Of a DNA stretch of 64,000 nucleotides, positions 34,010-36,840 are shown in pieces; the stretch's first letter is position 1; every line of letters begins with the position of its first letter. Both the position numbers and the translations under genes were made by a program. The DNA is taken from assembly GCF_029603165.1 (NCBI RefSeq), contig NZ_JAQSVC010000002.1, positions 496,001 to 560,000 on the forward strand. The letters run 5' to 3'. The notes below the pieces were generated by a model. It was not told the origin of the DNA. It worked only from the letters and a program-made list of their open reading frames with translations, and made no database searches. This DNA comes from Galbibacter pacificus. Its GTDB lineage: Bacteria > Bacteroidota > Bacteroidia > Flavobacteriales > Flavobacteriaceae.

Positions 34010-34489
34010 TTACAAATCGTTAAAAATAGTGTGCATTAACCTACGTTTATCATTGATACTTTCTTCCAATGAAATCATGGTCTCTGTCCGGGATACACCG
34101 TCAATATCGTCTACCTTGAAAATTATCTCTTTGGCATGTTTTGTATCTTTTGCCCTTATTTTACAGAAAATATTGAATTTCCCTGTGGTAATATGCGCCA
34201 CTGTTATGTAAGGAATTTGGTTTAGCCGCTCTAAAACAAACTTGGTCTGATGCGTTTTCTCTAAGAAAATTCCAACATATGCTATAAAAGAATACCCTAA
34301 TTTAACATAATCAAGAGTTAGTGAGGAGCCTTTAATAATGCCGGCATCCTCCATTTTCTTCACCCTAACATGAACTGTACCCGCCGATATCAAAAGTTTT
34401 TTTGCAATATCCGTAAAGGGGGTTCGGGTATTTTCAATCAACATGTCAAGAATTTGATGGTCTACCTCGTCTAATTTAAATTTCGCCAT
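34010..34489 (-). CDS. Lrp/AsnC-family transcriptional regulator
   Basis: A 159-residue regulator. Residues 5-60 form the winged HTH (LDEVDHQILDMLIENTRTPF...ISAGTVHVRVKKMEDAGII) and residues about 70-150 the RAM/AsnC ligand-binding domain (ITVAHITTGKFNIFCKIRA). The ATG at 34489 (MAKFKLDEVD) is chosen over an upstream in-frame ATG because the extra residues are Phe/Lys-rich leader translated from AT-rich DNA. It lies 100 bases downstream of the M14 peptidase gene. Confidence 0.92.
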   Translation of the reverse strand: MAKFKLDEVDHQILDMLIENTRTPFTDIAKKLLISAGTVHVRVKKMEDAGIIKGSSLTLDYVKLGYSFIAYVGIFLEKTHQTKFVLERLNQIPYITVAHITTGKFNIFCKIRAKDTKHAKEIIFKVDDIDGVSRTETMISLEESINDKRRLMHTIFNDL

Positions 34490-34589: not shown

Positions 34590-35723
34590 TTAAATTTTCT
34601 TTAAAAATTCTGTTAAATAACTATTGTTTAACCTGTCAATTTCAACAGGCGCTACTTCTATTTTACTCATAGTTAATTCCTTATGCCCATAAAAGTGTAA
34701 ATGTGGCTCTATATGCTCCACAGAAGGGATAAACTCTATTTTATCATTTAATAATGTTTCCTTAAAGAACACTGCTATGTCTTTATATTCAATACCATTT
34801 TTAGTTTTGACAGGAAATTTCCTTAAAATGACATCATAAAACAGCTTATCGTTTTCAGGGATTTCAAAATAACCATGATATTTTTTGCCGGTTATTTCGG
34901 TTTCACCAATATAATTAATAGCTGCAACCAATGCATATGCTATGTATTTTCGGGTTTCTTCCCGTTCGTAATCGTCTGGGAAATGGCCAGATTCAAATAA
35001 AATGGTTGGAACACCCATCGATTGAAACGTATCCCCCACGCAATTAAGGTTAAAACCGTCGTCGTACCTTCCTACTTGTTTTGGAATAAATTTTTGCAAT
35101 ATTTTATCTATGGCTGCAATGACTTCCATACTTTTCCTTCTGTTGGCGGTAACCTTTCTTTCTTTGTCTTCAGCAGGCGTTAAAAAAGAAACCGTTGCCG
35201 GGTGCCTGGATTTTCCCGCACTAAATATGGTACGCTGATCGTGCAGATTAAAGCAGAAATGAGGCTCAAACTCATTAAAAACATTGCGCAAAAGTCTGCT
35301 TTCGGGTTGCGACAAGTTTTGTGCATCCCTGTTAAGGTCCACTTCATTACTGTTTACCCGTGTATATGCAGCAGCCCCATCTGGATTGAGCATCGGGATG
35401 ATGCACAAGGTAAAGTTGTTTATAATATAGGTGCGAAAAGCTTCATTGTTTTGTATAAAGCAAAGCAAATCCAACACGGCTTTTGTCGTGGTCGATTCGT
35501 TTCCGTGCATTTGCGACCACATTAAAATCCTTTTTTTACCATTGCCTATATATATGGTGTGAATGGGTTTTTGTAAAACAGAATTGCCAATATGCGAAAT
35601 TTTAAAAGCCGCCTCATATTTTTTTAAAATAGGTTCAATATCCAGTTGGGTAAGATATCTACCGGTAATTTTTGTCTCTTTATAAGTTGAATATGCTGTT
35701 GTGTAAAAGGTAATTAAATCCAT
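34590..35723 (-). CDS. M14-family zinc carboxypeptidase-like protein
   Basis: A 377-residue cytoplasmic-looking peptidase (no signal peptide). Zinc ligands are in HGNES (HXXE) near residue 74 and in LHDQRT; NPDGAAAYTRVNSNEVDLNRDA carries the Asn-Arg substrate site, and FESGHFPDDYER holds the candidate general base Glu. It is divergent from the XRE regulator gene and shares its operator-rich intergenic region, so it may be controlled by that regulator. The substrate (peptide, cell-wall fragment or amide) is unknown. Confidence 0.88.
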   Translation of the reverse strand: MDLITFYTTAYSTYKETKITGRYLTQLDIEPILKKYEAAFKISHIGNSVLQKPIHTIYIGNGKKRILMWSQMHGNESTTTKAVLDLLCFIQNNEAFRTYIINNFTLCIIPMLNPDGAAAYTRVNSNEVDLNRDAQNLSQPESRLLRNVFNEFEPHFCFNLHDQRTIFSAGKSRHPATVSFLTPAEDKERKVTANRRKSMEVIAAIDKILQKFIPKQVGRYDDGFNLNCVGDTFQSMGVPTILFESGHFPDDYEREETRKYIAYALVAAINYIGETEITGKKYHGYFEIPENDKLFYDVILRKFPVKTKNGIEYKDIAVFFKETLLNDKIEFIPSVEHIEPHLHFYGHKELTMSKIEVAPVEIDRLNNSYLTEFLKKI

Positions 35724-35736
35724 AGCTACTTTTAAG

Positions 35737-35999
35737 GTTTACAAATGTAAAATTATATTAGTTCACAGATGTAAACTAAATAAAGTAACAAATGTAAACT
35801 ATCCTTATATCATTCCAATGTCAAATTGTTTCCATTTGTATACGGATTAACATGTACATTTCACGATTTTTATATAATTAGTTTAATTTACTATATTTCA
35901 ATTATTTAAATGTAACTATCTAAATATAAAATTGAGTATAAATAGACTAATATTGCATTAATTATTGGATAAATCAGTTATAATGTTTACATTTGTAAC
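35737..35999. promoter_or_regulatory. Array of palindromic operator-like sites
   Basis: Between the divergent M14 and XRE genes the motif GTTTACAnnTGTAAAC occurs repeatedly: 35737-35751 (perfect over 14 bases), 35761-35776 (one mismatch), 35784-35799 (right half perfect), 35828-35843 (two mismatches), 35985-35999 (left half perfect). A further copy overlaps the XRE start codon (36021-36036). The 16-bp dyad with a 2-base centre fits binding by a dimeric HTH protein, most simply the XRE regulator itself. The first site lies only 14 bases from the M14 start codon. Confidence 0.7.
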
Positions 36000-36020
36000 A
36001 TTCGCTACTATCAAAACGTG

Positions 36021-36036
36021 GTTTACAATGGTAAAC
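36021..36036. promoter_or_regulatory. Operator-like palindrome across the XRE start codon
   Basis: GTTTACA-AT-GGTAAAC has one mismatch to the dyad. Its centre contains the ATG (36028-36030) of the XRE gene, so a protein bound here would block both transcription and, in RNA form, could place the start codon in a hairpin loop (GTTTAC/GTAAAC stem). Confidence 0.6.
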
Positions 36037-36456: not shown

Positions 36457-36840
36457 ATGAAGTATCCTGTATTGTTTTTATTGTGCTTTTTAATGTTTTC
36501 TTCATGCTACCAGACCGAAAGAAATTGCAGCGATTTTAAAACCGGTGAATTCGAATTTACCTATAAAATTAACGGCGAAGAAAAAACAAGCAGGTTTGTT
36601 AGAAACGATTCTATTGAAGTGGATTATTATGAAAACGAAATAGACTCCAACACAGTGCGGTGGATCAACGATTGCGAGTTTATTGTGAAAAAAATAAACC
36701 CAAAATCGAGAAACGATGCCAAGGCGATACACATGAAAATCCTTACGACCAATAAGAATACCTATCTTTTTGAGTATTCTGCCGTTGGGGATAAAAAAAA
36801 CAAACAAAAAGGTACTGCTATCAAAATTAACGACCTTTAA
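36457..36840 (+). CDS. Small lipoprotein, conserved near topoisomerase IV genes
   Basis: A 127-residue lipoprotein (lipobox FLMFSSC) with a beta-rich soluble part (FEFTYKINGEEKTSRFVRND, EVDYYENEID, WINDCEFIVKK). Homologues in flavobacteria are often labelled DNA topoisomerase IV because they lie near parC; the sequence has no topoisomerase feature, so that name should not be used. It is translationally adjacent to the XRE gene. Function unknown. Confidence 0.8.
   Translation: MKYPVLFLLCFLMFSSCYQTERNCSDFKTGEFEFTYKINGEEKTSRFVRNDSIEVDYYENEIDSNTVRWINDCEFIVKKINPKSRNDAKAIHMKILTTNKNTYLFEYSAVGDKKNKQKGTAIKINDL

Follow-up and report, generated by a model that had tools for sequence, protein, structure and literature searches.

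A conserved dyad array beside an XRE regulator gene in Flavobacteriaceae, most likely an autoregulated, looping operator

Known repressor loops come from a small number of model operons, and their phasing was tested there by the insertion of bases. GalR, one of the repressors to be compared here, belongs to the LacI family. In the E. coli gal system, two operators face the same side of the helix and flank an HU site, and repression works at distances of 103, 113, 123 and 133 bp, but fails at 5-bp offsets (PMC4693257). ImmR of ICEBs1 is described as a helix-turn-helix (HTH) repressor of 127 aa that has three sites near each of two promoters, six in all; it has been suggested to form a loop, and a metallopeptidase gene is part of the module (PMC8960796, PMC4207663). 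The HTH regulator RcoLS20 of pLS20 has two multi-site operators at divergent promoters that are joined by a loop, and a 5-bp insertion destroys regulation (PMC4207663). Closer in taxonomy are the non-canonical LexA/SOS regulators of Bacteroidetes, phage-like HTH_3 proteins for which one diverged site, TTAC-AAATT-GTAA, is given (PMC8565304).

Set against these descriptions, the array upstream of an XRE regulator gene that we analyze here would work like the gal repressosome and the ICEBs1 ImmR switch, and by the features tested it is not a member of either system. With ImmR/ImmA it shares the short HTH repressor, the six sites over two promoter regions (four nearer the M14 peptidase gene and two nearer XRE in Galbibacter pacificus, three and three in some relatives, e.g. 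L019 and L184) and a peptidase gene in the module. However, ImmR is encoded on a mobile element, whereas the XRE locus is chromosomal and lies among conserved genes. XRE was found in 283 of 298 family genomes that are at least 95% complete, representing 181 of 187 genera (E 1e-10); Of 107 loci, 106 have M14 divergent from it, and in the series L017-L096 lrp comes next after M14 in 79 of 80; in L081, the flank is too short. Moreover, ImmA is encoded with ImmR and cleaves it, while the peptidase next to XRE is of the M14 carboxypeptidase type, is not known to be linked to the repressor, and in Pfam at E 0.001 matches only Peptidase_M14.

The likeness to gal lies in the natural distances of the array, which step through 203, 213, 224 and 233 bp. 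Yet gal has two single operators, whereas the XRE array has multi-site groups, divergent genes and a putative role for HU/IHF, and the Pfam matches of XRE at E 0.001 or better are HTH families only (HTH_3, HTH_19, HTH_31 and Phage_CI_repr), not those of a LacI/GalR-family repressor. RcoLS20 resembles the array in its type of regulator, its two multi-site operators, its divergent promoters and its loop, which in our case is inferred, but differs in controlling plasmid conjugation, in its 75-bp spacer with a static bend and in its sites. The SOS regulators are HTH_3 phage-like proteins of the same phylum, but as described they carry an S24 peptidase domain and recognize motifs with N5 spacers (GGA-N5-TCC, CTAA-N5-TTAG). 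Because XRE has no S24 domain and its motif is different, we rejected SOS/LexA membership. Literature searches covering titles and the beginnings of abstracts found no paper on the XRE-M14 locus, and we found no existing name for the regulator.

Genes and dyads in Galbibacter pacificus

The window, that is, the whole 64-kb stretch of Galbibacter pacificus DNA that was analyzed, contains the following features of the locus, in window coordinates:

34010..34489, minus strand: Lrp/AsnC regulator gene (lrp), behind M14 on the same strand; the start MAKF was picked by alignment
34590..35723, minus strand: M14 zinc carboxypeptidase-like protein, 377 aa, divergent from XRE
35737..35752: dyad S6, the outermost; the predicted M14 -7 box TACATTTG lies within it at 35749-35742, minus strand
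35761..35776: dyad S5, 24 bp from S6
35784..35799: weak S4-like dyad with 3 mismatches, 23 bp from S5 and displaced from the usual S4 place
35828..35843: additional dyad with 2 mismatches; counterpart at the same place in the same-genus loci L018 and L097
35883..35935, plus strand: conserved middle block of 53 bp, with an IHF-like 13-mer TTTCAATTATTTA at 35896-35908 that agrees with 8 of 9 positions of WATCARNNNNTTR
35965..35967, plus strand: TTG, predicted XRE -33 element, 20 bp ahead of the -7 box
35985..36000: dyad S2, enclosing the predicted XRE -7 box TACATTTG at 35988-35995, with the predicted transcription start at about 36000
36021..36036: dyad S1, over the XRE start codon
36028..36456, plus strand: XRE/HTH_3 regulator, 142 aa, with a five-helix HTH, a disordered linker and a C-terminal beta hairpin
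36457..36840, plus strand: small lipoprotein-like gene behind XRE, without a Pfam family

The HTH_3 domain of XRE scores 33.7 bits, compared with a Pfam cut-off of 23. In the structure model (mean pLDDT 77.6), the five-helix HTH (residues 4-68) is followed by a low-confidence linker and a beta hairpin (residues 125-139) that ends a few residues short of the C terminus. The HTH and the hairpin are conserved across 31 sequences, the linker is not, and the hairpin may serve oligomerization. The PDB folds listed by Foldseek include C.BclI, SinR and 434 Cro, all at E values above 0.001, and a PDB sequence search with XRE and M14 gave no match at E 0.01. Neither the Pfam search nor the structure model revealed a ligand domain, in agreement with the earlier note, which had described a regulator without a known ligand domain, and the Pfam search gave no S24 domain. 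The XRE gene has one match within its own genome at E 0.001. On the M14 side, the motif HG[NDST]E is present in 224 of 224 M14 rows. The lipoprotein-like gene is found behind XRE in 60 of 107 loci; it is conserved, and has no family in Pfam, NCBIfam or PHROGs. Separately, L178 (genome G031) has a lipoprotein-like reading frame of 184 residues at 436-990, between the XRE array and M14.

A mismatch scan identified six GTTTACANNTGTAAAC-like dyads between the minus-strand M14 gene and the plus-strand XRE gene, all at the positions that the earlier note had given. They differ from GTTTACANNTGTAAAC by 1 (35737), 1 (35761), 3 (35784), 2 (35828), 2 (35985) and 1 (36021) mismatches. The first and fifth dyads had been placed correctly, but counted as 15-mers; at the full length of 16 bases, their ends are 35752 and 36000. 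The last one does cover the XRE start codon (ATG at 36028-36030), and the first is indeed close to that of M14 (ATG at 35721-35723 on the minus strand), although the gap amounts to 13 bases rather than the 14 reported. The equivalent of the 35828 dyad has 1 mismatch in L018 and 3 in L097. S3 is not present in the window, and S4 is replaced by the dyad 23 bp from S5 and another one beyond it.

At up to 3 mismatches, the 64-kb window has 12 matches compared with 6.3 expected, and 2 of 100 shuffles also reach 12. The case thus rests on clustering and on conservation in relatives, and not on the count. The cluster goes beyond what chance would give: in the whole 4.04-Mb genome, there are 35 matches at up to 2 mismatches and 19 for the reversed-pattern control, and 5 of the 35 fall within the 300-base region. 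The 35784 dyad, with its 3 mismatches, is unremarkable alone; it lies 23 bp from a neighboring dyad.

Conservation across Flavobacteriaceae

By sequence comparison, the six dyads are part of an operator array that is found across Flavobacteriaceae. In a search of 99 relatives at E 0.001, XRE was present in 80. At least one site with up to 2 mismatches accompanies XRE in 212 of 217 loci, the other five having none at this threshold. Over the 217 loci, the 78.6 kb upstream of XRE contain 745 sites and the other 775.7 kb contain 10, which makes the upstream regions 736-fold denser; the 107 non-redundant oriented loci gave 405 sites in 37.6 kb upstream and 7 in 562 kb elsewhere, again at up to 2 mismatches. 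The earlier note would have been refuted by a motif that is equally frequent in unrelated intergenic DNA of the genome, or lost where XRE is conserved. The searches of the genome and of relatives did not refute it: the motif is not a common genome feature, and within the family it is not lost where XRE is conserved.

In compiling the loci, we dropped L100, L101 and L106 as duplicates, L256 and L272 as too short, L196, L197, L198, L395, L136 and L149 for identical upstream DNA, and L130 for having no XRE. Only exact duplicates were removed, so near relatives stay in the locus sets; a further 20 regions that were examined are outside the 217-locus set.

The sites recur at characteristic positions. 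Relative to the XRE start, S1 lies at -7, S2 at about -42 and S3 at about -77, and on the M14 side S4 lies at about -220/-242, S5 at about -255/-275 and S6 at about -280/-299. The S6-S5 spacing is 24 bp in 150 of 151 loci, under a naming rule that admitted 22-26 bp; S5-S4 is 33-35 bp in 102 loci (rule 33-36), and S2-S1 is 33-37 bp in 132 of 140 (rule 33-37). S3 is rarer, with only 43 sites in 107 loci. The pattern is less strict in loci from outside the family; one of them, L164, has no site.

The first codons of XRE bear a mark of the site that covers them. Where S1 lies at -7, 181 of 182 loci have AAC as codon 3, compared with 32% of Asn codons among codons 9-75, and codon 2 is GTA in 120 of 126 cases of Val (39% elsewhere) and ATA in 51 of 53 cases of Ile (26% elsewhere). 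The DNA site S1 thus constrains the coding sequence.

Promoter boxes, spacing and the middle block

The -7 box of flavobacterial promoters is given as TAnnTTTG at -12 to -5 (PMC9723704). S2 carries this sequence on the XRE strand in 149 of 151 cases, with a TTG 20 bp upstream of the box in 66 of the 149 loci, and S6 carries it on the M14 strand in 182 of 186. Among 183 S1 sites, there is none on the XRE strand and one on the other strand. With the predicted boxes inside S2 and S6, XRE bound to these dyads would cover both of them.

Helical phasing was analyzed in those 143 of the 217 loci that meet the naming rule for S6, S5 and S2, the 74 without all three being left out; they come mostly from different genera. 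The S5-S2 distances cluster at 201-205, 210-215, 220-225 and 232-234 bp, with singles at 178, 190, 193, 209 and 243, and give a Rayleigh R of 0.76 at a period of 10.1-10.2 bp (n=143). For 86 loci hand-picked from an earlier set of 140, approximately one per genus, R was 0.73, compared with a maximum of 0.34 in 1000 normal draws of the same mean and spread. Relatedness was controlled for with a FastTree tree of M14 and XRE, which has 142 tips since one of the 143 loci lacks M14. On this tree, 43 of 72 distance changes are of 1-3 bp, 2 of 4-7, 23 of 8-12, 1 of 13-17 and 3 larger, which within 4-12 bp differs from a flat expectation (p 9e-5). A tree of M14 alone gave a weaker result, with 38 changes of 1-3 bp, 4 of 4-7, 19 of 8-12, 1 of 13-17 and 7 larger (flat-null p 0.006), and in the related M14 tree 91 of 221 inner branches are weak.

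When S5 and S6 are pooled without a naming rule, R drops to 0.28 at 10.3 bp, and the best period becomes 11.5 bp (R 0.64); because the two sites are 24 bp apart and thus out of phase, pooling blurs the signal. The ATG-to-ATG distance gives R 0.39 at 10.8 bp. No such period was found at 10.3 bp in the control spacings from the XRE stop to the lipoprotein start (R 0.18, n=90) and from the M14 stop to lrp (R 0.29, n=89). Since looping repression in gal fails at half-turn offsets, the steps of the natural distances are what a loop needs.

Between the two site groups lies the middle block, the core of which resembles the IHF consensus WATCARNNNNTTR (PMC9820253). In 143 loci, it matches 9 of 9 positions in 39, 8 in 66, 7 in 30 and fewer in 8, compared with 0.4% of shuffles that score at least 8 of 9. 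The block is in phase with both site groups (R 0.88 each) in the 138 loci that remain when the five with a block score of 15 or less are left out; in these, the core is mostly 127-128 or 137-139 bp from S5, with six at 116-118, and mostly 84-87 or 95-97 bp from S2. The genome has two genes of the HU/IHF family, both scoring below the curated IHF cut-offs. A bend by an HU/IHF-type protein is the simplest reading of the block, although another protein may be at work there.

The binding protein and the proposed loop

Fifteen of the 298 family genomes have no XRE match at E 1e-10. Ten of these keep M14 and lrp with a readable M14 promoter, and none of the ten has a site in its locus at up to 2 mismatches; one of them, L288, has a 3-mismatch site beside M14. 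The other five were not counted: in G343, sites remain beside M14 where the contig ends, so that XRE may lie past it, G288 and G223 are cut within M14, and for G311 and G323 no M14 was matched at E 1e-40. On the M14 tree, six changes of XRE state are required, at least three of them forced by starred branches. As the sites are gone in all ten readable loci, XRE is the likely binder of the dyads. The co-loss is strong evidence, but not proof, because the replacement of XRE may have included the intergenic DNA. The autoregulation and the shared control of the peptidase that the earlier note had proposed fit this comparison, with sites in 212 of 217 XRE loci and in none of 10 M14 promoters without XRE. 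The promoter boxes within the dyads, the phasing of the two groups, the IHF-like block and the linkage of lrp are additions to that note.

Together, our data suggest a model which we regard as probable, namely that the array is the operator of XRE, which would repress itself and M14(-lrp) through a DNA loop assisted by an HU/IHF-type bend. On the XRE side, dimers would occupy S1 over the start codon, S2 over the -7 box and, where present, S3 upstream; on the M14 side, they would occupy S6 over the -7 box, then S5 and S4. Both -7 boxes would thereby be hidden, so that XRE would repress its own gene and M14, and probably lrp behind it. The loop would join the two groups, with HU/IHF bound at the middle block. 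The sequences themselves show the sites, their conservation, the promoter boxes within them, the codon constraint, their loss along with XRE and the helical phasing, and from these we infer XRE as the binder, the repression, the loop and HU/IHF on the block; a conserved, autoregulated, looping operator is the most likely interpretation. Among the points against it is the short predicted leader of M14, since the distance from the M14 ATG to the start of S6 is 13-15 bases in 84 of 135 loci.

It is unlikely that XRE acts as a plain repressor at each promoter separately, without a loop, and that the phasing has another cause, e.g. a protein at the middle block that acts on both promoters. Each promoter does have its own site over the -7 box, and since the block is in phase with both groups, a protein bound there could impose the phasing. 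Moreover, the block scores 15.9 at position 2672 of L288 and 13.4 at position 1324 of L289, two loci that have lost XRE; both values are above the 95th percentile of the null distribution (8.5), but not above its maximum (17). This retention suggests that the block may serve M14 by itself. What speaks against the separate action of XRE is that the mutual phase of the two groups has been held across more than 200 bp through the 23 changes of 8-12 bp, and that the sites vanish with XRE, which makes XRE part of the constraint.

We consider it very unlikely that an immunity switch of the phage/ICE type has become fixed here in the chromosome of the whole family, in which M14 would be an anti-repressor that trims the conserved C-terminal hairpin of XRE, breaks the loop and flips a switch with two states, XRE or M14-lrp expression.

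Still less likely is the binding of the dyads by another protein, such as the Lrp/AsnC regulator. Its gene is conserved beside M14, but it is kept in all ten readable loci that have lost XRE and the sites. Furthermore, sites persist beside XRE in L117, though M14 is about 1.6 kb away, and in L131, where there is no M14 match in the locus and lrp adjoins XRE. Lrp as the binder was rejected because lrp is kept where the sites are lost. The least credible reading, that the dyads work in RNA, e.g. as a hairpin at the XRE start codon, draws on S1 in the window, which reads as a short stem with the AUG in the loop, and was rejected because the left arm of S1 is often broken in relatives (first base G in 34% and A in 43% of 99) and the M14-side dyads are outside the predicted transcripts.

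Returning to the looping operator, its targets appear to be local: xre, M14 and probably lrp. The exact two-dyad pattern occurs in 28 of 100 family genomes, compared with 4 for the reversed-pattern control, and of its 38 occurrences 31 fall at the XRE locus; two of the remaining seven were placed by coordinates alone. A wider regulon was rejected, as the other single sites look like background. In seven genomes of the same genus, 11 of 19 sites with at most 1 mismatch are in the array, and the remaining 8 compare with 5 in the reversed-pattern control. In the source genome (G000), 11 of the 30 sites outside the array at up to 2 mismatches were inspected, 8 of them being inside reading frames; the excess of these 30 scattered dyads over the 19 in the control is unexplained. 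In L131 (about 935-2155) and L171 (about 496-1367), XRE is directly opposite lrp with dyads kept, suggesting lrp as a target in its own right; L171, too, has no M14 match in the locus and lrp adjoining XRE, and the sites between the two genes are 3-mismatch sites only.

The spacer between the two site groups has changed mostly in small steps or by about one helical turn, as if evolution had run an experiment akin to the insertion of bases. The regulator is present in nearly all sampled members of the family, its target is apparently local, M14-lrp, and its exact sites are now defined.
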